Source: Nitrospirota bacterium
GTDB taxonomy: Bacteria; Nitrospirota; Nitrospiria; Nitrospirales; UBA8639
NCBI GenBank assembly: GCA_029864405.1
Contig: JAOTTP010000011.1
Location: 1-50,831, forward strand
DNA length: 50,831 nucleotides
Direction of reading: 5' to 3'
Numbering within the stretch: the first letter of the stretch is position 1; each line of letters opens with the position of its first letter. Under the pieces are notes generated by a model. The model was not told the origin of the DNA, did no database searches, and was given only the letters and a program-made list of their open reading frames with translations. Positions 20,988 through 49,928 of the stretch are shown here, piece by piece. Position numbers and translations under genes: made by a program.

Positions 20988-23900
20988 TCAGTGAATCTCG
21001 GCTGTATGAATGGTCTCAAACAGTGCGCGAGGCTGAGAGAGCGGTTCCCATTGCAGGATGGTGAGCGAGTCGTCGACATAGACCGGATGGCGCATGCCAT
21101 TGAGCACACAGGTCACACCGGGGGTGCTGGCAACGGCCCAAAGGGCTTTACGGGAAAAGGGTTCCTCACGTTTGGCTTCCGGTAATAAGGGGTCGATCAT
21201 CTGACGAATTTCAGAGAGCTTTTTGGCACTTTTTTGCGCGGCCTCCATGCGCATGACCTTGAGGAGGGAGACGAGTTCAGGGACATACCGATTACGCCAC
21301 GATTCCCATATTTGTTCTTTTTCCTTTTTGCCGGCGAAATGCCGGGTAAGCAGTTGGAAGACCTGATTGGCATGTGGGGCAATCGTTTGGGATTCGATTT
21401 GGTCCCAGTGCTCAAGATTTTGGATGGATGATCGAATCCGTTGCAGTTCTTCGGCCCAGTTGAAATAGTCCAGCGGAGCTGCTCCTTTTTCGGGTTTTGG
21501 GATCTGGGGTGCTAACACCTGTTTGTAGTCGTGTTCCAGCGCGGCGACTTTTGGCTGTTGGGCATCAAAGTTCGTATTGGAAATTTCCACCTGAGGGTCT
21601 GCGAGGCGGATCATTCCTCCGCCTTTCTCTGGGATGGCATTGAGTGGTCGGTTCACCAAGACCGCAATGTTGGCTTCCTTGGCCAATGCCAGCACTGCTT
21701 GCGACTGTTCCGGGCCGGTATTGGGCGTGAGCAGGGCTCCCGATTCAAACACATTCATCGGGAGTTGCAGGACACGAAAATGATGGTGAGGAATGCCGGC
21801 ATCCTTTGCAGCAGCCTCAGCAGCTTTAAGCATACGAGAGAGTGACGTGGCTTCGGGATTATCGGGTTTGGCCGTGCAGGTATTGGAGGAGACTCCATAG
21901 AATTGCAAGCGGCCGGCAGCGATTTGTGTCTCTAGATAAATAAACGCCTGTTGCAGGCGTCGGTAAAATTCCTGCCTGAGATCTTCAAGTCTGATGGGAT
22001 CAATCGACAAGTTCCGATTCTTGGCATCGGACAGGAAATATTCTGGATTGTGCAGGAGGCAGACATCCAGGGTTTCCAGTCCCAGGCGGTCAAGAGACAG
22101 AATGAGTTGTTCTTCTAGAAACGAAGGATGGAGGCAATGCCAGATGCCCTCGCCATATTTGACCATCTCGGGAAACGGTTTGCCGGCTTGTTCCCTGGCC
22201 TCAGCGCGCGTAAGATTGTTCCCCTGCACATAGCCGATTTTTGAGACCACGATGACTTCATCACGAGAGACCACCTGTTTAGCAATAAGATCTTTGAGCA
22301 CCACGCCGACCAACCGTTCGCTCCCACCCTCGGCATAATTGGTGGACGTATCGATAAGGTTGCACCCGCCTTGTAAAGACTTTTCCAGTGCCTTTCGTTG
22401 GTCTTCCACTCCAACGTCGATCCGGTAGCCACCAAAGCCAAGGCGAGAAGTTGTCAGTCCGGTTGAACCCAACGTGGTGTATCCATGAGAGGAAGGGCGC
22501 GAATCCTGTGGGCTGGCCAGGATTCTGGCCACGTACTGTCCCGTTCCTTGAGGAGTGGCATGTCCGGAAAGGCCCTGGCTGGTCAGTGCCTGCAATTGTT
22601 CTCCCGGTGCTGAGGAGGTAACTCCCTGAGGGCTACTTAGCGCGGACGGTACGGCTTGAGGGTCGGTGATCGGAGCCTGGCAGGCAAAGTTCTTACAGAC
22701 ATAGAGTGCAGCTTTCCCATGGATCAGGGTTTTTCCGGCTAACAGGGGATGAGTCGGTTCACCCTCCAGCTCTTGGCGATAGGCCAAAATGCGGTAAGGC
22801 ACAAAGCACGCATTCACCGCTGAACGGAATTGGTCATACCCCTTGTCGCCGGGGGTTCCTACTATCGCCAACTCTACCGGGCTCCGCAATAAGAGGTCGA
22901 CAACCATGAGACTTTTCGAAAACCCTCTGGGCATCTGCCCGATTTGTTGTCCGTAGGCCCGAATGGCATTGGTCGCGGCTTTCCGAAAGTCTTCACGATC
23001 GCCATGAAATGATAGGCGGGCCAAATTGAACGCGGCCACGGCGTTCCCGCTCGGAGTTGCCCCATCAGCACCTTCTCGTCCCCGGATAATGAGAGCTTCG
23101 TGGTCGGTGGGGGTGGTAAAGAATCCTCCATGGTCTCGATCTTCAAAATCTTCCAGAATACGTTCAGCCAAGGAGACCGCCTCGTGGAGATACCGTTCGT
23201 GCCCCGTGGCCTCATAGACGTCGATCATGGCTTCGGCCGCATAGGCATAATCTTCCAGGCAGGCATTGAGATGCGCGTGCCCCGCGCGATAAGTGCGCCA
23301 CAGCCGGCTTTCGGGACGTGAAAGTGTGGAGAGAAGGAAATCGGCAGCCCGGAGGGCCCCATCCAGATAGGGTTGGTGGTTGAACACCCGACCGGCCTCG
23401 GCCATCGTCCCGATCATCATGCCATTCCAGGCGGTGATGATTTTGTCATCAAGTCCCGGCGGTACACGTTTCAGTCGAGCCTGGTACACGGTCGGTTTCA
23501 CCCGGTTGATCGTGTCGCGTATGTCCTCGGAGGAACAGCCTAATTCCTCTGCCACCGTTTCTAGTGATTTTGTCGTGCGTGGGATGTTGGTGTGTTCCCA
23601 ATTGCCTTCCTCCGTGATGTCGTAATAGGCGCAGAAGCGAGTGGCGTCTTGTTCATTTGTCACGATTTCACGAATCTGTTCCGTGGTCCAGACGAAAAAT
23701 TTGCCTTCCACCCCTTCGCTGTCCGCGTCAGTTGCTGAATAAAACCCGCCTTCCGGTGCGGTCATTTCTCGCAAAATGTAATCTAAGGTCTCCGTGGCGA
23801 CCTGGCGGTATCGCTTTTCCCCTGTGACTTGAAACGCCTCAACGTAGGTCCGTGCGAGGAGGGCATTGTCATACAGCATTTTTTCAAAGTGCGGGGCTAA

Positions 23901-24701
23901 CCATTCATCATCAGTGGAATAGCGCGCAAACCCGCCTCCAATATGATCGTACAGTCCGCCTCCGGCCATGCCATCCAGAGTTTTGGTGACCATGGCGAGT
24001 ATTTTTTTCTCTCGACTCCAGTGATATTGGCGCAAGAGAAATGAGAGGCCGGTGGCAGGTGGAAACTTGGGCGCACGCCCAAATCCCCCATAACGTGCAT
24101 CAAAATCGCGGGCAAATTGCTTGACGGCATCTTCAATCTCGGCTGCACCAACGGCAAGCGGAGATGCAGGTTGCAGGGCGGTTCGCAGACGTGTGGTGAA
24201 TCGACTAGCTTGTTGGGCGATGTTGGATTGATCTTTCTTCCACCCCTCCCCAATGTTTGTCAGAATTGATCCGAATCCCGGACGACCATAGCGGTCGGTC
24301 GGAGGGAAATAGGTTCCCGCAAAAATCGGCTCCTGATCGGGAGTGAGGAATACGGTCATGGGCCACCCACCGTGTCCTTGATTCATCGCGGTGGTGGCTT
24401 GCATATAGATTTCATCCAAATCCGGTCGTTCTTCCCGGTCCACTTTAATGTTGACGAAGTAACGGTTCATGAGATCCGCGATGGCCTGATTTTCAAACGA
24501 TTCACGTTCCATCACGTGGCACCAATGGCAGGCTGAGTATCCGATGGAGAGCAAAATGGGCTTGTTTTCTTGCTTGGCCCGACTCAGCGCCTCCTCCCCC
24601 CAGGGGAACCAATCTACGGGATTGTAGGCATGCTGAAGAAGGTAAGGGCTGGTTTCGTGAATCAGCCGATTGGGTTGGCGCTCGGTTGTGGATTCAGACA
24701 T
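20988..24701 (-). CDS. Fusion: DUF255/YyaL thioredoxin-domain protein + aldo/keto reductase
   Basis: A single 1237-residue frame. Residues about 1-690 match the YyaL/SPATA20-like family: [20 protein letters not shown] at the start, a thioredoxin-fold CHWC at residues 58-61 ([14 protein letters not shown]), [11 protein letters not shown], and then an alpha/alpha-barrel part with [17 protein letters not shown] and [16 protein letters not shown] Ser/Gln/Thr-rich linker (about 690-738) leads to an aldo/keto reductase from about 740 ([17 protein letters not shown]), with the Asp and Tyr of [12 protein letters not shown], the Lys of VVSKIGYV and the His of CLLHNPEYF, followed by a long C-terminal extension. 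Both halves look intact. The start at 24701 ([10 protein letters not shown]) is preferred over the hydrophobic extension to 24773. Function is unknown. Confidence 0.85.
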
Positions 24702-24793
24702 AAAGAATTTCTCGCTCAACGTGATCAGGATAATAAAAAATAGAGACGCTGTACTATGCGAACATTCAATCAATAGGCTAGGAAAAGAAGTGA

Positions 24794-40271: not shown

Positions 40272-42587
40272 ATGAAGGCAGAAGCAGAAAACCTGGATTT
40301 TGTAACAATTGAGGGCCTGTTAACGTATGGCGAGGCGATTGCCCGACGCCCGCCCGTAGAGGGAGCGGAGCCTCCTCCCCCTCTCGCTTCATCGGGGGAT
40401 CGCCCGCAACGAGCATTGGAGGCCATGGTCGCCATGCGACTATTTGTCCAGGATGCCCAAACAGGGTTTGCCAATGCCGCGGACTACAGAGACGCAAGGC
40501 ATGCGCTGATTCAGCAAGCCTGCGGGGGAGATGAGTTGGTGTTTTTCGCTGCCTGGAATCAGCTTCTCGCTCAGGGCGAGCTTTCTCCCTTATTTCGAGC
40601 ACCTATCGGGGTCACGAAAAAACCAATACGACGTCGACCCGTGGCGATCGTCCCACGTGAGCATATGACGCCTAATCTGGCTGAGGGTCGGATAGTCCTT
40701 GATATTGGCGAAGATCGCTACTGGTTGATGCCCCGTGATTTAAGTGCCCGCACGCTGTTTTTTACCATGCGGCATGGAGTCTCTCAGATGGATAGTAAGA
40801 AGTTCCGTGTGGGGCGCCGGTTTAGGAACGTCCTTGACCCCGAGCGGGGAATTCCCAAGGCTGAAGCCATCGGGACCGCACTTGTCCGGACGTTAGGCCT
40901 CGTCGGGAAACAACTGGACTTTCTCCACCTGGATAACTATCTGGATTCGGAATCGTTTGTCCACATGGTGAGTAAGAGTCCCAATACCCGGCAGCTTTTT
41001 GAACGGGTCGTCTCCATCCTGTCTCCCGAGACAGCTAAGGCCACCCAGCCCATCACTGAATGGGCGTTAGAATCCCAAGACTTTGGATGGGCCACCGGCA
41101 TTGAGAAAACGACCGAAATTGAAGAAGCCGCCAAGGCCTTTGGGGTCGACACGAAGACGGCCCAGCGACTGATTAAACATCCGCTCTACAGTTATGCGGG
41201 AGGCCACTCGTTCTTTGAACTCTATGTGGATTTGGTCGATGGGTTCCATCAGTTGGGCCAGAGCCACCAGGGAAAAGTATTGTGTTTGTATACGCACAGT
41301 TCAACCTTGCGAGCGCTCTTAATTTTTCTCGATCCTCGTCCGTTCAGTGAAGCGTTTTCAGAATTTGGAGCCTACAAGGAAGGACAGGACAACGTCGTCC
41401 TCCTCACCTATGAACATGGGCAATTGTCGGGGTATTCCACTGCCGTCGGTCTTTCAGAACGAGAACGGGCGGCCCGTGAGGCCTGGATGACCGTAGAACA
41501 AGGCCGCCGTGAGAAGGTCACCTTGAAACCACGTCAAATTCGGCGAATTGTCGCCCTGGTCTCCGGTGGGGATTTTGCCGGAGCCGGTGCGGCCTTGAAG
41601 GAGCTTCGCGTCACAGGGAATCGATTAGGCCTCGAAGTCTATTTCGTGCAACATGGATTTCTGGGTTTGGCGAATAATTGGATTGAGTTGGTGACGGAGC
41701 AGGACACGCGTGGAATGAGTAATCACGCCAGCAGCCCGATTGGAAGCAGTCGGTTTGAAGATTTTAAAGATGAGGAGGCCCAACTGGCCGCCATTCATCA
41801 TCTCAAACCGTACATGGAGGATGGGGCGTTAATCGTGATGGGAGGTGACGGAAGCATGCGCGGGGCTCGTGCCATCTATGAACGGTTTGGTATACAGGTC
41901 GTGGGGATTCCTGGTTCGATCGACGACAATATTGCCGGAACCACGTCACTCGGGCTCCAATCAGCTGTCGCCCTAGCCAACCAATCAATCGAGTCGCTAA
42001 AAGCGACCAGTGCGGCCATGGGAAGTGTCTTTTTTGTCGAAGTCATGGGGGCAGGATCCGGGCACCTGGCATTAATGTGTGCATACCAGGCACGAGCTGA
42101 GGGCCTGTTGGTCAATGAACATCCTGATCCTGATGCGTATATCGAGGAGGTCATTCTGGGCACATTGAAACAGACGTTGGGTGTCCGGAACAAAAGCCAT
42201 ATTTTTATTGTGGCCGAACGCACGCCTCACCGACATCATCCAGAGGGCGGGGTCCATGGCCTGGTGGACTATGTCGCCAGTCGGATCTCTCAGTGGACCC
42301 ACCTGCAAACACGATCCGGGCATTACCCCCTCTCAGTGGCAACCAAAGCCACCATTCTTGGTCATACCCTACGAGGGGCCTTCCCGACTCCGGTGGACAA
42401 AACCATGGCTCAACTCTTCGCCTACGAAGCCATCCGGTGTTTGATCGAACAGCCCGAACAGGTCATTGGATGCATGTTAGCCTACCGGGACCCTGGAACC
42501 ATTCAACCAATTCCCCTGCATGCTGTAGCACCAAAACCATTTGATTGGGAGCTCTTCGCTCGAATGCACGGAACCGAATTGGTCTAG
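40272..42587 (+). CDS. Fusion: histidine-phosphatase domain + phosphofructokinase-like domain
   Basis: A 771-residue protein in three parts. Residues 1-160 are an unassigned helical region plus a short beta domain. Residues about 160-410 are a histidine phosphatase (phosphoglycerate mutase-like) domain with the phospho-acceptor motif TMRHG, His168, and the second His342 in LYTHSSTLRALL. Residues about 420-771 are a PfkA-like domain: VALVSGGDFAGAGAAL, GGDGS at 524-528, GIPGSIDDN at 545-553, VEVMG at 589-593 and LGHTLRGAFP around 696-704. Gly527 after the Asp fits ATP rather than pyrophosphate use. Several phosphofructokinase active-site positions differ (see findings), so the reaction is uncertain. 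GAGGTGAATAG precedes the ATG. Confidence 0.85.
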   Translation: MKAEAENLDFVTIEGLLTYGEAIARRPPVEGAEPPPPLASSGDRPQRALEAMVAMRLFVQDAQTGFANAADYRDARHALIQQACGGDELVFFAAWNQLLAQGELSPLFRAPIGVTKKPIRRRPVAIVPREHMTPNLAEGRIVLDIGEDRYWLMPRDLSARTLFFTMRHGVSQMDSKKFRVGRRFRNVLDPERGIPKAEAIGTALVRTLGLVGKQLDFLHLDNYLDSESFVHMVSKSPNTRQLFERVVSILSPETAKATQPITEWALESQDFGWATGIEKTTEIEEAAKAFGVDTKTAQRLIKHPLYSYAGGHSFFELYVDLVDGFHQLGQSHQGKVLCLYTHSSTLRALLIFLDPRPFSEAFSEFGAYKEGQDNVVLLTYEHGQLSGYSTAVGLSERERAAREAWMTVEQGRREKVTLKPRQIRRIVALVSGGDFAGAGAALKELRVTGNRLGLEVYFVQHGFLGLANNWIELVTEQDTRGMSNHASSPIGSSRFEDFKDEEAQLAAIHHLKPYMEDGALIVMGGDGSMRGARAIYERFGIQVVGIPGSIDDNIAGTTSLGLQSAVALANQSIESLKATSAAMGSVFFVEVMGAGSGHLALMCAYQARAEGLLVNEHPDPDAYIEEVILGTLKQTLGVRNKSHIFIVAERTPHRHHPEGGVHGLVDYVASRISQWTHLQTRSGHYPLSVATKATILGHTLRGAFPTPVDKTMAQLFAYEAIRCLIEQPEQVIGCMLAYRDPGTIQPIPLHAVAPKPFDWELFARMHGTELV

Positions 42588-42671: not shown

Positions 42672-43466
42672 TATGGGGCATGTAGTAAATAGGCGTGTGT
42701 CAGGGCATGTGAAGGATTGTTGTGATTTCCAATCAAGTAAGAACCATAAGGCTATCTCCGGTACGTTTGCCTTCTTAACGAGCCTTCTTGCAAAGGGGTC
42801 TATCATGCCGATTGGAAAGGTCACTATTCAATTTACGCTTGTCACTGTGTTACTCCTTACCGGGTGTGGGGGAGTGCAGTCGGGACAAATTCCCGCATTG
42901 AATGGTTCCCAGTTGCCAGAAGAGCAAGGTTGGGTGGTTTCCACCAACGCTGTTCGCCCATTGGACGTGGTGACAAATGGGAGTGTTTTAACGCTCAACA
43001 CGATTGGAGTCCTAAGAGCTATCGACCAACTTCCAGGGAAAGCGTTCGTGTGGTTTTATAAGGACATGCCTTTTGACTTCCAAACGGAATTCTCAATTGA
43101 GTTTACTTTGCAGGTGCACAAAGTGGAGCAACCGCATAATTTTCTTGATTCGGGCATTATGTTTTATGGTTCTATCGATACCTCTGCCGGTAGCTTCGCA
43201 GAAGGACCACGAAGTCATATGATCTTCTTTGACGAGGATGCCATTGGATGGGGAGACGAAACAGGGAGGTTTGCGATGGATACCACCGACAAATTCCACA
43301 CCTATACCTTAAAGGTTGAGGGTGAAAAATTTGCCAAGGTTTATGTTGATGGAAAACTTGCGTTGCAACGAAATGACTGGGTGGGAATACCCAGAATCGG
43401 CTTTGGGGATATGACGAATGATGATGGGGTTAATGGAAAGTTTTCTATAGGAGACATCATTGTGAC
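42672..43466 (+). repeat. Duplicated segment, copy A
   Basis: This segment is clearly similar to 49100-49912. Similarity starts abruptly at TATGGGGCATG, covers about 130 bases upstream of the lipoprotein start and the lipoprotein gene to its GDI-strand, and ends just before the divergent C-terminal tail. The leader contains several amino-acid-changing differences in the frame that stays open, so it is probably non-coding regulatory sequence. Confidence 0.85.
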
Positions 43467-43548
43467 CTCCGATCCCCGACTCCTCCCTTCACAGCCTGCC
43501 CCCCGCCGTCACCTAATACCTCCTTCACGACGTGCTCCCAGTCGTTAG
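42805..43548 (+). CDS. Putative lipoprotein, jelly-roll/LamG-like, paralogue A
   Basis: A 247-residue precursor with a lipoprotein signal (hydrophobic TLVTVLL and lipobox LTGC, Cys near residue 20). The mature part looks like a concanavalin-type jelly roll as in LamG/DUF1080 proteins: FSIEFTLQVHKVEQPHN, GIMFYGSIDTSAGSFAEG, FHTYTLKVEGEKFAKVYVDGK and RIGFGDMTNDDGVNGKFSIGDI. It is probably anchored on the cell envelope and may bind carbohydrate or another ligand; no catalytic residues are evident. AAAGGGG precedes the ATG at 42805. The last about 26 residues are a Pro/Arg-rich tail absent from paralogue B and read into the edge of a transposase relic. Confidence 0.75.
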   Translation: MPIGKVTIQFTLVTVLLLTGCGGVQSGQIPALNGSQLPEEQGWVVSTNAVRPLDVVTNGSVLTLNTIGVLRAIDQLPGKAFVWFYKDMPFDFQTEFSIEFTLQVHKVEQPHNFLDSGIMFYGSIDTSAGSFAEGPRSHMIFFDEDAIGWGDETGRFAMDTTDKFHTYTLKVEGEKFAKVYVDGKLALQRNDWVGIPRIGFGDMTNDDGVNGKFSIGDIIVTSDPRLLPSQPAPRRHLIPPSRRAPSR

Positions 43549-44510
43549 AATAGGGGGCAAAATTTTTGTTGACTAATTTCTGCCTCAACCTGTGACACCC
43601 GTTTCTTGGAGCGTTGGTCAGCGGCCTGTTTCGCCCGGACCTGCGCACAGGTCCAGCCCACGACCCCATAGCTCTCCATCCCAACGTGCACCGCCGTTTC
43701 CTGCAACGTCAGATCACACAGTAACTCGACCAGATACATCGCCGCCTTGCGAGCATGGTTCGTTTCCCCGCGACGGCCGCTCATTAAAGTCGTGACCTCC
43801 ACCTCAAACACCATCGCGACCCGCTGCATCACCTGCCGCACCGAGGGGCGACCGGTCACCCGCTCATAGCGCGGATGCTCCCGCGAGAGGCGCTGGCCCT
43901 TGTTCTTGACCCACCCCAAGAATCCTTCCGTGCCTAACACCGGCAACTGGCGTTTGGCCGCGTAAAAGGCTTCCAACGCCTCCTCGTTGCCGGCCACCGC
44001 ACATTCATGAAAGGTCCGGGGCGTGCCAAAGTATTCCAAAGCTTCTCTCACACGCAGCCACGAGGAGGCGGAGGTCGGTTTCAAGTACCGGGCATGGCTA
44101 CTCCAGCCGTACGTTTCCGGTGATGTGGCCAAATAGCCTGGACTGGGTTGAGATGAATGTACCGAAACACCGAGCCTCAATAGGCCTCCGCGTCTACCAG
44201 GATCGCTTGATAGCGCTCTCGAAACAATGGCCCATCCGGCCGATGTGCTCGATGAACCCGTCGGGTACATCATTGAGATACCGCATGACGTGCCCCAGAT
44301 TCCTGCGGGCGGGCGCAGACACAGATGAAAGTGATGGCCCATCGAAAATTGGCGAAGTCCTCCACCTCCCCAAGGGGTATGGGTCTCGCCCAGCACCTGG
44401 AGAAATGTTTCATAATCAGTGGGAGTACAGAGGGTCGCCTAGCGAGGCAGACCACGGTTCATCACATGATAGACCGTACTCGGATATTCAATACGCAGAG
44501 GCCAAGGCGT
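43545..44510 (-). pseudogene. Degraded REP-associated tyrosine transposase (RAYT, IS200-like Y1)
   Basis: Minus-strand remains of a RAYT. Reading across frames gives PLRIEYPSTVYHVMNRG at the N-terminus, an HUH-like HHFHLCLRP, then GHVMRYLN, a YIHLNPVQAG-like stretch, and a long intact C-terminal part (YGWSSHARYLKP onward, with the helix-turn-helix-like end SYGVVGWT). The start codon position now reads ACG (44508-44510), a stop interrupts it right after NRGLPR, and at least three frame shifts separate the pieces. The longest remaining frame is 43545-44396. It is certainly inactive. Its left end lies against lipoprotein A. Confidence 0.8.
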
Positions 44511-44920: not shown

Positions 44921-47900
44921 ATGCCTAATAATTCCCCCCAATCAGGCCAAGATTCAAAGGCTGGGCCAATAGCCTTTGTGCTTGTGGCTGCCATTCTGAG
45001 CGGCATTTGGTTTACTCAACCGCCTTTGAAAAGCTTTCGCCAAGGAGAAGTCTCCCAGGAATTACTCCGCGAAAAGGAAGATGTGCAAGCTCGTCTTTGG
45101 CAAGATCCTTTTCTTGCCGTTCAAAAGCATGAGCAGGAGGAAGAGGAAGGAAAAAAACAAGATCAAGTTAACCTCACCCATCATTCCTTTGAATCCTTTA
45201 AAGAAAAAATCAAAGAAAAGTTTTCACAAAATGATACCTCTGAAGCCATTACCATTGTGATTAATATGGTCGACGGGGGGCCTTATGCTGAAGCCCGAGA
45301 ATCGAGGATTCGTCATCGATATGCCGTGGTGTCGGGTTTAGGGGTGAAGAATTTTGTGCCTGAAGACTCTCAGAAAATTGGATTTTTCCGATTTCCCTTA
45401 ACGCGTGAAAAAAAGGACTGTCATTCGGGTACAGAAGTCCCGAAAAAAGCGTGTTCTGATGCCCCAGATGCTCCGGCGTCAAAAATGGAAAATCCTCAGA
45501 ACAGTAGAGATGCTAAGAACGTAAAAGACTGTAGTCTGAACTCTATCGGACAAATAGAAAAGTGCCTTGTCGTGCCGTATGAGTGGTACAAAACGGACCC
45601 TATTCTCACGCTTTCCAGTGAAAAGGAAGATGGTGAGCATAAGGCAAAAGAGGATGGCAATGGGCAGGAAAAGGGCGAGAATCAGACAGATGTGGGTAAT
45701 TTGGTTTTAGTTTTATGGATCATGGATGAGGTTTTGGATCATGAGACGCCTCTCCGCGATCTTCATAGTCTGGTATACGCGCTCAAGCAAAATATTCCAA
45801 ATGATAAATTGAAATTCAAAATTATTGGGCCACGAACGACGACGACTCTCAAAAATATGGTGAAAGAGTTAGAATCGAACTCGACTGAGAAAGATGCCGA
45901 AAAAAGCCAATCAACTGCTTTAGCAGACGTGCCGTTTTTTTCTCCTTGGTCTACTTCCCCGGAATGGCTTCTCCTTAAGCCAGAGCCAGAGCCAGAGCCA
46001 GATGCGCAGATGTCTATTGGGTCTCTATTTATGAAAATTGAGTCTCTATTTATGAAATATGATAAGGATGAGGAAGATAAACCAGACAAGCCAGACAAGG
46101 AGTCTATTCAAGATAAGAAAAACACATTTATTCGGACTATTGGGACAGACGATCAATTGGTTGAAGCTCTGATTCAAGAGCTGTGTCGACGAGGGATGGA
46201 AGTGGGTCGGGAAGATGTTCCTATTACGCTGGTATCAGAGTGGGACACTGCGTATGGGCGTGCTCTTCCTTTGACGTTTGCGGCTATTGTTGCCCAAATG
46301 AAAGAAGATAGATTTCATGCTAGTGATTTCACAGACTTAAAAATGTTTATAAACAAGTTGCAAGAAGCAGCGGATCCTTTATCGCAATACCTTAAAGAGC
46401 AATTTTCCAAAACAACAAGGGATCTAGTCGATACTTACAATGATTCCGAATCTCCCTCTGAGCAGATTGAAACAGCTCTTCTTGGGGAGCTGAACAAATT
46501 ACTTCGTGGTCCTTCTCTTTACCATGAACAGCGATTCGCAAAAGAGGAATTAGGAAAGAGAACTCGTAAATTGATTGAAAAATTAAAAGAGAAAGAAGAG
46601 AAAGAAAAGAAAGAAAAAGAAAAGAAAGAGATTATTGCTTACCTCAATAAATTATTCTTGGAAGATGCGTACCCAGAAGAAATAAACTTCTCTATTTGCC
46701 GCCACGAAAAGTTTCAAGATAGGAATTCCAAAACGCATTCCGATCTTCGGAGAAAAGTCCAGGCTTTGAAACGGAAGCCAGAGAATTTAGCCAACTTGGG
46801 AATCAAACAATATGCCTATCTTCGGGGATTGGACGGAGAGTTACCTCAAGAATTTTCTTCAAAAACATCAAATTCCTCTCAAGGGTCCAATAACTCGAAA
46901 GGATTATGGGGGAAAAAGCAAGAGGTGTCATCAGACATTAAAAGACCTGAAGGGGCTACGCAAATCGATTATGTCAGGCGACTGACTTCTCGAATTGAAG
47001 GAGAGATGGGTGAAGGGGGCACACCCGTCAAGGCCATTGGGGTGTTGGGGAGTGATGTGTACGACAAACTTCTGATTCTTCAGGCTCTGCGACCTCGTTT
47101 TCCGAATGCTATTTTTTTTACCACTGATCTGGATGCCAGGTTTTTGCATCCCAGTCAAAAGGATTGGACACGGAATCTCCTGGTTGCTTCCCACTATGGT
47201 CTGGCCTTACACAAGAATTTACAAGGTATGGTTGCTCCGTTTCGGGACGGATATCAGACGGCGGTTTTTCGGTCTGTTCTGCAAGCGTTGTGTTCTCCAA
47301 CTGACAACTCCCTTTGTGGTTTCCCGCAAGTAGGATATGGAGAGAAGGAAATACGGTTGTTCGAGCTGGGGATGACGATGCCGGTAGATTTAAGCGAGTC
47401 CGATGGGAGCCATGTGCATCCAGATCCTATCCCACCCTCTTCGCTCTATTGGGAAAAATCGTTCCATCCCTTGATCCTCTTGTCATGCTTGTTGCTTGCG
47501 CTGATGTTGATTGGCCGGTTTGTCATTGCCGGATTTCTGGATGACCGGACGTGGTGGGCGATGGCTGTATACTGCGTGGTGATCGGATTGGTTTTGTGGT
47601 TCTCTTGGGATCTTTCCAAAAGCCGCGAGTTGTTGTATTGGACGGGCGAGCCTTTTTATTGGTTTGAAGGTGTGAGCATATGGCCATCGCAACTCTTGCG
47701 AGTAACGGCTGCGTTTTTATGTGTGTGTTTCTTGTTGAAGATCTATGGTGAATTTCATGATAGGGAAACTCCTAAGAGTGCTAAGAGTTCTGGAGGATCG
47801 GAGGACACGAGTTGGACAGTATGGAAAGCCACATATGAAGAAAGGTACCCTCGGTGGAAGAGAGTCGTGGTTTATAGTGTTATTTATGTTGTTTTTGCAA

Positions 47901-48559
47901 TTTTGTTATGGACTCTTATAGGGCAGCCGGAGAATGACGTTCTCTACCGAGGGCAAGTTGAGGATTCTTCTTTCACACGGAATACTGTGGTGAAAGGGCC
48001 GTTGCTCATCGCCGTGCTTTTGCTTATTGGACTGATTTGGCAGGTGATTGAGCGCACATTAGAGTGCTGTCATTTCGTTCGAAACTCAGGGAAAAAGTAT
48101 CAAGTCTGGCCAGTAGAGAAATCGTTCATTGTTGAGGTTGCCAACCGGACAGAGAAAGTAGGACAAATCATTTATTACCCGGTTATCGCGTTGATTGTGT
48201 TGGCTGCGTCGCGGTTTTCACTTTTTGACAATTGGGACTTCCCTCTTGCCCTTATTCTTATCATTGGGATTAATTTTAGTCTCATGCTGTGCTGTGCCGT
48301 GGTTCTTCGAGTATCAGCAGAAAAGGCGAGAAAAGAAATCTTGGAAAGCTTGGAAGACAAACTTTTTCAATTTACTGTGGAAGGGAATGACTCAAAATTT
48401 GCCTCAAAATTGAGATCCCATAAATTTGTCATCGATGAAATCCAACGTCTCAAACATGGGGCCTTCGCTCCCCTGAGTCAACACCCTATTTTTGGAGCCA
48501 TTCTTTATCCGTTTGGTGGTGTAGGACTTCTTGTTTTAATTGAGCATTTTATTACCTGA
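44921..48559 (+). CDS. Large unrecognised receptor-like membrane protein
   Basis: A 1212-residue protein of no family I can name. Residues 14-33 are a membrane anchor, then a charged Glu/Lys-rich linker. Residues about 95-830 look extracytoplasmic and alpha/beta: AITIVINMVDGGPYAEARES, LVLVLWIMDEVLDHETPLRDL, KFKIIGPRTTTTL, ITLVSEWDTAYGRALPL, and near 700-745 AIGVLGSDVYDKLLILQAL and AIFFTTDLDARFLHP. The rhythm resembles a type-I periplasmic-binding fold. A KEK coiled-coil-like run lies near 556-580 and a PEPEP repeat near 353-360. About eight membrane helices fill 850-1212 (near 850, 886, 925, 982, 1026, 1083, 1108, 1190). There is no kinase, GGDEF or protease motif. Base composition is more AT-rich than the housekeeping genes. 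Only a weak AGAG precedes the ATG. A ligand sensor or signalling role is inference. Confidence 0.7.
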   Translation: MPNNSPQSGQDSKAGPIAFVLVAAILSGIWFTQPPLKSFRQGEVSQELLREKEDVQARLWQDPFLAVQKHEQEEEEGKKQDQVNLTHHSFESFKEKIKEKFSQNDTSEAITIVINMVDGGPYAEARESRIRHRYAVVSGLGVKNFVPEDSQKIGFFRFPLTREKKDCHSGTEVPKKACSDAPDAPASKMENPQNSRDAKNVKDCSLNSIGQIEKCLVVPYEWYKTDPILTLSSEKEDGEHKAKEDGNGQEKGENQTDVGNLVLVLWIMDEVLDHETPLRDLHSLVYALKQNIPNDKLKFKIIGPRTTTTLKNMVKELESNSTEKDAEKSQSTALADVPFFSPWSTSPEWLLLKPEPEPEPDAQMSIGSLFMKIESLFMKYDKDEEDKPDKPDKESIQDKKNTFIRTIGTDDQLVEALIQELCRRGMEVGREDVPITLVSEWDTAYGRALPLTFAAIVAQMKEDRFHASDFTDLKMFINKLQEAADPLSQYLKEQFSKTTRDLVDTYNDSESPSEQIETALLGELNKLLRGPSLYHEQRFAKEELGKRTRKLIEKLKEKEEKEKKEKEKKEIIAYLNKLFLEDAYPEEINFSICRHEKFQDRNSKTHSDLRRKVQALKRKPENLANLGIKQYAYLRGLDGELPQEFSSKTSNSSQGSNNSKGLWGKKQEVSSDIKRPEGATQIDYVRRLTSRIEGEMGEGGTPVKAIGVLGSDVYDKLLILQALRPRFPNAIFFTTDLDARFLHPSQKDWTRNLLVASHYGLALHKNLQGMVAPFRDGYQTAVFRSVLQALCSPTDNSLCGFPQVGYGEKEIRLFELGMTMPVDLSESDGSHVHPDPIPPSSLYWEKSFHPLILLSCLLLALMLIGRFVIAGFLDDRTWWAMAVYCVVIGLVLWFSWDLSKSRELLYWTGEPFYWFEGVSIWPSQLLRVTAAFLCVCFLLKIYGEFHDRETPKSAKSSGGSEDTSWTVWKATYEERYPRWKRVVVYSVIYVVFAILLWTLIGQPENDVLYRGQVEDSSFTRNTVVKGPLLIAVLLLIGLIWQVIERTLECCHFVRNSGKKYQVWPVEKSFIVEVANRTEKVGQIIYYPVIALIVLAASRFSLFDNWDFPLALILIIGINFSLMLCCAVVLRVSAEKARKEILESLEDKLFQFTVEGNDSKFASKLRSHKFVIDEIQRLKHGAFAPLSQHPIFGAILYPFGGVGLLVLIEHFIT
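45977..46060 (+). repeat. Short tandem repeats inside the large membrane protein gene
   Basis: Two adjacent simple duplications: CCAGAG repeated four times (45978-46001, encoding PEPEPEP) and GTCTCTATTTATGAAA-type units repeated twice about 21 bases apart (46021-46057, encoding SLFMK twice). Both keep the frame, so they change linker length without disrupting the protein. Confidence 0.75.
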
Positions 48560-49205
48560 GAGCATATCTAGAAGCTTGTAATATCCTGGGTTTTCAGTGC
48601 GAAGCCGGGGTGAAATAGCTTGTCTGTTTGCAGCCATTCTGACCGGGACTCACTCTTAAGGCCTTCTATTTCCTTTCAAACTGTGGCGCACAAGAGATGA
48701 GAGATCACAAAATTAGATATTGTCGGGAAAAGCTCTGGGACCCACAGTTGACGGCCCAATGGGATCGCCAAATGAATGGTAGATAATGGTGCCGAATTCG
48801 GCGAACAATCAGGGTCCATGGTAGAGCATAGAGTGGCTTAATTGGAGCAAAACGTTTGAAGGAATTAGGCCCTTCCTCCGTATTGGTAGAGAAGCCGATC
48901 TTGTGGCTGACTGCTGGCGGATAACGGGTGATGGGTTGAGAGGAGTGTCGAGTAGTTCAATGCCCGTCTCTAGAGGAGATTGTTGATTCTTAAGCTGGAA
49001 GAGCTATAGTAGAATCTCTTCCATTGGCCGGAAGTGGGGAAGGAGATTTTTGTGTTTGAGTACTCTCAATCTCATAAATAGTTAGGGATATGGGGCCGCT
49101 ATGGGGCATGTGGTAAATGGGCGTGTACCAGGGCATGTGAAGGATTGTTGTGATTTACAATCAAGTATGAGCCATAGGGCTATTTCCGGTACATTGGTCT
49201 TCATA
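48560..49205. other. Intergenic region before lipoprotein B
   Basis: There is no convincing gene in 646 bases. Frames are short and broken, as in decayed sequence. A GGAAGAG/CTCTTCC stem (48997-49003 with 49016-49022) has no T run. The last about 105 bases (from 49100) are the leader shared with lipoprotein A. Confidence 0.4.
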
Positions 49206-49912
49206 ATGCGCCTTCTTGTAAAGGGCTGTGCCGGGTGGATCGGAAGAGCAACTATTCTAAGTACGCTTATCCTTGCGTCCATCTCAAATTACGCTTGTCA
49301 CTGTCCCTGGTGTGGACCGCAGACGGAACAGATGAGGGTATTGGATGGTGCCCAGTTGCCAGAAGACCAGGGTTGGTTGGTGTCTACGAACGTGGTGGCC
49401 CCATTGGACGTGGTGACAAATGGGAGTATGTTAACGCTCAACACGATTGGTGTCCGAGGAGATATCGACGAACTTTCAAAAAATAACGCGTTCATGTGGT
49501 TTTATAGGAAAATTCCTTTTGACTTCAAATCAGGATTCTCAATTGAGTTTACGTTGCAGGTCCACAGAGTGGAACAACCGCATAATTTGTTTGATTCAGG
49601 CATTATGTTTTATGGTTCTATAGACACTTCTGCTGGTACCTTCGCAGAAGGACCACGAAGTCATATGATATTTTTTGATGAAGATGCTATTGGATGGGGA
49701 GACGAGACGGGGAAGTTTTCGATGAATACCACGGACACATTCCACACCTACACCTTAAAGGTTGAGAATAAAAGATTTGCCAAGGTATACGTTGATGGAA
49801 CACTGGTTTTACAACGAAACGATTGGGTGGGGATACCGAGAATTGGTTTTGGTGATATGACCAATGATGATGGGGTCAATGGAAAGTTTTCTATAGGAGA
49901 CATCATGGTAAC
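49100..49912 (+). repeat. Duplicated segment, copy B
   Basis: Counterpart of 42672-43466 in direct orientation, about 6.4 kb apart. It has the same abrupt left edge at TATGGGGCATG, and its right edge is at the end of the final conserved strand (GDIMVT). Confidence 0.85.
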
Positions 49913-49928
49913 AGGGAAAAGGGATTGA
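49206..49928 (+). CDS. Putative lipoprotein, jelly-roll/LamG-like, paralogue B
   Basis: A 240-residue paralogue of the protein at 42805. The mature domain is nearly the same: AQLPEDQGWLVSTN, PLDVVTNGSMLTLNTIGV, SIEFTLQVHRVEQPHN, GIMFYGSIDTSAGTFAEG and RIGFGDMTNDDGVNGKFSIGDI. It ends soon after the last strand (VTGKRD). The signal region differs. The ATG used by copy A is lost, so the likely start is MRLLVKG at 49206, with a hydrophobic segment and a lipobox-like SNYAC; a cluster of three Cys (YACHCPWC) follows. The frame is also open from 49101, but that part matches the non-coding leader of copy A. Confidence 0.7.
   Translation: MRLLVKGCAGWIGRATILSTLILASISNYACHCPWCGPQTEQMRVLDGAQLPEDQGWLVSTNVVAPLDVVTNGSMLTLNTIGVRGDIDELSKNNAFMWFYRKIPFDFKSGFSIEFTLQVHRVEQPHNLFDSGIMFYGSIDTSAGTFAEGPRSHMIFFDEDAIGWGDETGKFSMNTTDTFHTYTLKVENKRFAKVYVDGTLVLQRNDWVGIPRIGFGDMTNDDGVNGKFSIGDIMVTGKRD

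Follow-up and report, generated by a model that had tools for sequence, protein, structure and literature searches.

The 50,831-nucleotide stretch of the Nitrospirota bacterium contig JAOTTP010000011.1 analyzed here (hereafter the window) carries, at positions 44921-48559 of the forward strand, an open reading frame (ORF) that runs uninterrupted from ATG to stop and encodes a 1212-aa membrane protein, referred to below as the receptor. Because the window receptor and 14 relatives at 30-36% identity have 106 invariant columns in common, and because 377 of the 430 candidate stretches from a species-genome scan encode relatives, this ORF does not represent a chance reading frame. Full-length relatives are mostly 1000-1120 aa. 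The Glu/Lys-rich linkers described in the initial annotation are indeed present, but comparison with the full-length relatives indicates that they are largely insertions specific to the window copy. The AT-rich composition reported there was also evident, with a GC content of 0.439 for the gene compared to 0.501 for the window, the copy-specific insertions standing at 0.391 and the core at 0.454.

Hydropathy averaged over the family displayed a single membrane segment near the N-terminus (residues 19-29) and eight toward the C-terminus (854 to 1199; one listed in two pieces), as initially annotated. The chain thus begins with a helix, continues with a large ectodomain in the periplasm, and returns through a linker helix to a set of seven further helices. 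With loop limits that we chose from the hydropathy, mean Lys+Arg counts were 2.4 (872-876), 10.7 (944-980), 6.9 (1051-1078), and 9.6 (1128-1188) for the cytoplasmic-side loops, and 0.8, 1.9, and 0.3 for the intervening periplasmic-side loops of the C-terminal part. These charges indicate that the last seven helices are N-in/C-out, and the ectodomain was placed outside because Lys/Arg are richer in the would-be cytoplasmic C-terminal loops than in the would-be periplasmic ones. The N-in end of the first transmembrane helix (TM1) was derived entirely from the C-terminal loop charges; the stretch right after TM1 (38-60) contains on average 3.9 Lys/Arg versus 3.1 Asp/Glu. Under hydropathy-based limits, the inside loops span 37, 28, and 61 residues, compared to 24, 25, and 8 for the outside loops. 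The full-length structural model of the receptor has a mean predicted local distance difference test score (pLDDT) of 72.4 and a predicted template modeling score (pTM) of 0.73. The features of the receptor are collected in the table; the signature region resembling periplasmic-binding proteins (PBPs) was located in the window copy by visual inspection of its alignment with the 14 relatives.

Table. Features of the receptor gene in the window, and loci of relatives with enzyme-encoding neighbors
Feature	Position	Strand	Basis
Whole receptor gene	44921..48559	+	ATG-to-stop open frame; full-length relatives
TM1, residues ~17-34	44969..45022	+	family-mean hydropathy peak 19-29; model helix 2-16 = residues 17-31
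Periplasmic ectodomain (type-I PBP-like), residues ~40-845; low-complexity insertions specific to this copy	45038..47455	+	hhalign; helix/strand model
PBP-like signature region, residues ~297-450 (GPxxS, RTIxTD, EWDTxYGR)	45809..46270	+	ectodomain-profile columns 129-272 (hhalign)
Linker TM2, residues 848-872	47462..47536	+	C-terminal model helix 9-33; hydropathy peak 854-865
Seven-helix unit S1-S7b, residues 875-1211, insect gustatory/odorant receptor-like (tentative)	47543..48553	+	AF2 model; Foldseek
Conserved S7a/S7b break, residues 1177-1189 (G1180, F1182, P1189)	48449..48487	+	conservation; gap between model helices
Loci with lipase, subtilase, hydrolase, amidase, or lysozyme neighbors	L079 4334-9235; L090 8261-9961; L071 10463-12177; L072 13187-15360; L066 13153-13860		

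Pfam and NCBIfam searches of the receptor returned weak hits only, every one under the cut-off, in line with the earlier statements that the protein belongs to no recognized family and lacks a standard output domain. A phmmer search of PDB sequences detected no relative at E 1, and the family profile reached a best E of 0.16 against the PDB; PADLOC returned nothing significant, relatives were found neither in the viral contigs nor in the plasmids searched, and no title describing such a receptor family turned up among the literature matches listed. Judged by sequence, the family is therefore undescribed in Pfam, NCBIfam, PADLOC, and the PDB as searched.

The initial annotation had proposed a type-I periplasmic-binding (Venus-flytrap) fold, and profile comparison lends this proposal independent support. 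A profile of the ectodomain from 48 relatives (alignment A6, with the window copy left out) was aligned by hhalign with 30 Peripla_BP_6 proteins from four genomes (alignment A5), yielding a score of 37.7 and an E-value of 4.9e-4, whereas the same query scored no higher than 22.1 against 33 unrelated families taken from the loci that were fetched, and reversed profiles scored 14.6 and 12.2. The alignment pairs the GPxxS segment of the ectodomain with the iGxxxS of the binding proteins, followed by RTIxTDxxLA, and then IALIsEWDTxYGR with their DyxxG; the order of GPxxS-like, RTxxxD-like, and DxxYG-like segments is typical of Peripla_BP_6 proteins, and the alignment agrees with it. In an alignment of 120 rows spanning several phyla, D442 (0.95) and Y445 (0.88) within the signature region are conserved, as are D712, D738, R775, and E815 elsewhere in the ectodomain. 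The full-length model alternates strands and helices, in keeping with a fold of this type; many blocks of the ectodomain have a pLDDT of 86-95, while several fall under 50. The type-I proteins 5ere, 4ry8, and AmiC (1qo0) were among its Foldseek hits, albeit weakly (E 0.75-2.5, probability 0.21-0.54). Against this assignment, the probability of the hhalign match is just 31.7%, and it covers 95 of the 517 ectodomain columns. The receptor's weak Pfam hits, five in number, do not include Peripla_BP_6, and PF13458 found no match at E 1e-5 in the window's genome, which is 66% complete. Taken together, these profile data support PBP ancestry of the ectodomain well, and a periplasmic domain of this descent is probable.

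For the C-terminal part, an AlphaFold2 (AF2) model built without templates attained a pLDDT of 78.3 and a pTM of 0.78. When the isolated membrane-domain model was compared by Foldseek with 350,542 PDB chains, ranks 1-10 were all insect gustatory or odorant receptors (GR/OR; probability 0.47-0.98), namely Gr64a, Gr43a (two species), the OR28/Orco complex, and MhOR5, and with the full-length model, chains of Gr64a and of the OR28/Orco complex took ranks 1-3. The highest-placed G-protein-coupled receptor (GPCR) in the search with the isolated domain stood outside the top ten, at rank 35 of the 50 listed (probability 0.08, E 2.3). In the model, S4 comprises 43 residues, S5 32 (in two pieces), and S6 46, and S7 is split (319-337 and 350-372) with conserved G, F, and P between the halves, the topology placing S7a on the cytosolic side. 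Long helices 4 and 6 and a two-piece S7 are among the published criteria for the 7TMIC superfamily, to which the insect receptors belong (PMC9998090).

Several observations weigh against this likeness. The ten top chains represent only about five distinct proteins, the hits are weak (E 0.04-0.4, none reaching E 0.001), and TM-scores to the ten chains are 0.27-0.38, under the usual same-fold level. Searched against a viral library, this membrane-domain model matched a presumably unrelated tail fiber (E 0.016) as well as an uncharacterized 440-aa Catovirus protein, A0A1V0SCD1 (probability 0.99, TM 0.41), the latter with the top query-normalized TM of the 50 viral-library matches listed. The 7tm_6 and 7tm_7 families are absent both from the 25 best of 71 Pfam families for the C-terminal alignment (E up to 10) and from the Pfam hits of the window member itself, and no insect receptor stood among the PDB matches listed for the C-terminal profile. 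By eye, the last helix bears a striking resemblance to the insect S7 motif, yet this failed a position-specific test: the best-scoring stretch was close to the C-terminal end in 3 of 49 rows, and the terminal helix scored best in 4 of 49, where column-permuted motifs averaged 1.7 with a maximum of 13. There is also an additional helix, TM2, ahead of the seven-helix unit. Since matches in the viral library occur at a similar level, no single Foldseek value in this range settles the matter; what carries weight in these model comparisons is that the ten best PDB ranks come uniformly from one superfamily. We assign the 7TMIC fold to the membrane domain tentatively, at somewhat less than an even chance.

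Among the same 120 rows, 19 membrane-domain positions are conserved at 0.85 or above, of which 11 fall in the three periplasmic loops (including G917, S919, W921, R1010, G1011, and D1103), 3 (G1180, F1182, and P1189; 0.93-0.97) where S7 is broken or S7b begins, and 5 inside S2-S6 (including L1038, P1087, A1133, and P922, which borders the first loop). None lies in the linker helix, S1, the 950-977 loop, or S7a, and the cytoplasmic parts are poorly conserved, with mean top-residue fractions of 0.23 for residues 950-977 and 0.28 for S7a. This pattern would fit what coupling of the ectodomain to the last helix requires.

Relatives of the receptor were detected in 25 of 59 genomes of the window's genus, family, and order (its own genome counted). 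Wider sampling used a profile built largely from nitrifiers, each tally including its center genome, known beforehand to be positive. At E 1e-20, relatives were present in 60 of 125 genomes of the family of a Nitrosospira briensis genome, and in at least 14 of 299, 9 of 369, and 8 of 199 genomes of, respectively, the family of a Variovorax genome, the class of that genome, and the phylum of a Phycisphaerales genome, the last three tallies being lower bounds because only part of the candidates was scored. By these tallies, the family is sparse outside the Nitrosospira family and the window's own order. Hosts among the best 80 of the 377 relatives include Nitrospira, Nitrosospira, Nitrosomonas, Nitrococcus, Nitrotoga, Brocadia, and Scalindua, along with Nitrospinota, methanotrophs, Variovorax, Rugamonas, and others. 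In a tree of 120 rows spanning several phyla (quick method, midpoint root), the window copy sits on a long branch inside a 44-row, mainly Nitrospirota clade (support 97), within which a five-row Nitrosospira-type group is nested (L055, L073, L074, L082, and L255; support 100). This nesting suggests that the gene has been exchanged between nitrifiers, that is, between ammonia and nitrite oxidizers. Recent acquisition of the window copy through a mobile element, considered in view of the acquired unit initially proposed, is not supported: the copy groups with Nitrospirota members, and no mobile element adjacent to the receptor gene was confirmed.

We also searched the gene neighborhood for a partner. 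Of 148 stretches, 4 (L205, L209, L210, and L213) in which a crude gene caller produced no family ORF, despite a match detected there beforehand, were excluded, leaving 144 loci, 98 of them non-redundant and 84 scorable on both sides. No same-strand neighbor lay within 120 bp on either side for 50 of these 84 family genes, compared to 37% of 506 other large genes at the same loci. Operon-like neighbors were reduced to one per similarity cluster, giving 100, of which 19 (those from L204, L206, L217, L068, and L118, any below 115 aa, and any containing X) were dropped and 81 scanned with Pfam. No Pfam family occurred in more than 2 of these 81 collapsed neighbors, a procedure blind to close relatives. 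Without collapsing, 18 same-strand clusters up to two genes away recurred in at least 3 of the 144 loci, with a maximum of 20 loci. By eye, clusters recurring in at least 5 loci keep to one clade each, the exceptions being a stray locus (L040) and one cluster in five loci of two clades; three clusters flank 17-20 loci, which belong almost exclusively to a single Nitrospira paralog clade, and another adjoins 6 Nitrosospira-type loci. We read these recurring clusters as chromosomal context or clade-specific companions. Such clade-limited neighbors do count against a receptor that acts by itself, as exemplified by a gene of ~366 aa beside 11 Nitrosomonas-type loci, possibly a companion specific to that clade. 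This uncharacterized gene is located directly downstream of the receptor gene in L226-L229, L231-L236, and L253. In several distant lineages, genes next to the receptor gene encode patatin-like lipases, a subtilase, DUF900 hydrolases, peptidoglycan amidases, or a lysozyme. An effector system comprising the lipase, amidase, and lysozyme neighbors was suspected first and then rejected, as no single family recurs widely. Overall, the receptor looks to be largely self-contained and is often encoded by a solitary gene.

In the window itself, the receptor gene and a 283-aa ORF on the reverse strand (43545-44396) are bracketed by a pair of related genes (42673-43548 and 49101-49928), confirming the duplication reported earlier, with 82% DNA identity over 808 bp (42672-43460 versus 49100-49906). 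Neither gene of the pair, putative lipoproteins according to the initial annotation, has a Pfam match; a relative was present once in each of three other searched genomes, all of the same genus, in a different setting. The stretches fetched from three same-genus genomes (L291-L293) match the window at the duplicated gene only and thus provide no empty site. The 283-aa ORF had been taken for a transposase relic, a weak identification, since its only match is to the DnaA C-terminal helix-turn-helix domain, below the Pfam cut-off; its GC content of 0.589 is above that of the genes on both sides. Elsewhere in the window, a 771-aa ORF (40272-42587) has a phosphofructokinase domain confined to residues 425-723, its first 424 residues having no Pfam match at E 0.001, and a 1261-aa ORF on the reverse strand (20988-24773) combines a DUF255 thioredoxin-like domain (35-196) with an aldo/keto reductase domain (778-1044).

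Based on the data presented above, our best overall reading, held tentatively and just short of evenly balanced, is that the protein is an inner-membrane ligand-sensing chemoreceptor, possibly a ligand-gated channel. The initial interpretation is supported in part, through its flytrap fold; the insect-receptor-like membrane domain had been missed. In this mechanism, the periplasmic Venus-flytrap domain, held at both ends by TM1 and TM2, would bind a small molecule, and its closure would be passed via the conserved periplasmic loops of the seven-helix unit to the split last helix. The resemblance of the membrane domain to insect gustatory and odorant receptors suggests that the output may be built in. 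Given this likeness of the seven-helix unit to channel-forming receptors and the lack of a partner gene conserved family-wide, a gated ion pore made by an oligomer would be the likeliest output. We regard channel activity itself as possible but doubtful.

Long helix extensions in the models and large, Lys/Arg-containing cytoplasmic loops, together with the lack of any channel or transporter family above the cut-off in Pfam and NCBIfam, would also suit a receptor without a pore, in which the flytrap reshapes the membrane domain, whose long cytoplasmic helices then signal to a cytosolic partner encoded at an unlinked locus. We consider this rather unlikely, given that the family shows no conserved partner gene and that a docking site should be kept, whereas the cytoplasmic parts are little conserved. 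Alternatively, the flytrap might hand a solute to the eight-helix membrane domain, acting as the tethered binding protein of a transporter. Tethered binding proteins are known from other transport systems, and type-I PBPs mostly serve transport; however, transporter families are missing above the cut-off in Pfam and NCBIfam and from the top ten PDB hits to the isolated domain, and neither an ATPase nor another partner gene recurs family-wide, making this improbable. It is also conceivable that the protein has a structural or enzymatic role in the envelope, with a degenerate binding-protein part and an insect-receptor likeness arising by chance among helical bundles. The weak Foldseek E-values, the equal scores of presumably unrelated proteins in the viral library, and the failed S7 motif test agree with such a role, but the conservation across several phyla of D712, D738, R775, and E815, and of D442 and Y445 within the part aligned to PBPs, does not, and a single superfamily filling all ten top PDB ranks, even if with about five distinct proteins, would be unexpected for a generic bundle; we judge this quite improbable.

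Compared to known systems, the proposed chemoreceptor shares with Peripla_BP_6 (PF13458) proteins the periplasmic position and, by profile comparison, the segment order GPxxS, RTxxxD, DxxYG, but differs from them in having no Pfam hit over the cut-off, helices on both sides, large insertions, and a polytopic membrane domain. The likeness to insect GR/OR proteins (7TMIC) consists of the top ten PDB fold matches, seven N-in/C-out helices with long S4 and S6 and a split S7, and intracellular loops longer than the extracellular ones; unlike these, the receptor is bacterial, with a flytrap ectodomain and an extra helix, its TM-scores are at most 0.38, and no sequence similarity was detected in the tests made. 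The bacterial ionotropic glutamate receptor GluR0 would follow the same principle of a binding-protein domain coupled to a pore, but its binding domain is of type II and its pore resembles that of K+ channels. The general plan of a flytrap ectodomain followed by a seven-helix unit is that described for class C GPCRs (PMC2670285), from which the receptor differs by its added N-terminal and linker helices, its split helix 7, and a first GPCR match only at rank 35. The kind of ectodomain is thus already known, and the membrane fold, if correctly assigned, is known from eukaryotes; their combination in a bacterium seems to be new.

Even apart from the channel reading, these results describe a receptor-like family that lacks a Pfam or NCBIfam model and is present in 60 of the 125 Nitrosospira-family genomes. 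If the architecture holds true, bacteria that matter for nitrogen cycling possess a self-contained chemical sensor that in part resembles bacterial nutrient-binding proteins and in part insect taste and smell receptors. It would offer a bacterial protein for studying how such a pore might be gated by a flytrap, would bear on the question of whether prokaryotic relatives of the 7TMIC superfamily exist, and, if confirmed, would constitute a new kind of bacterial chemical sensor.

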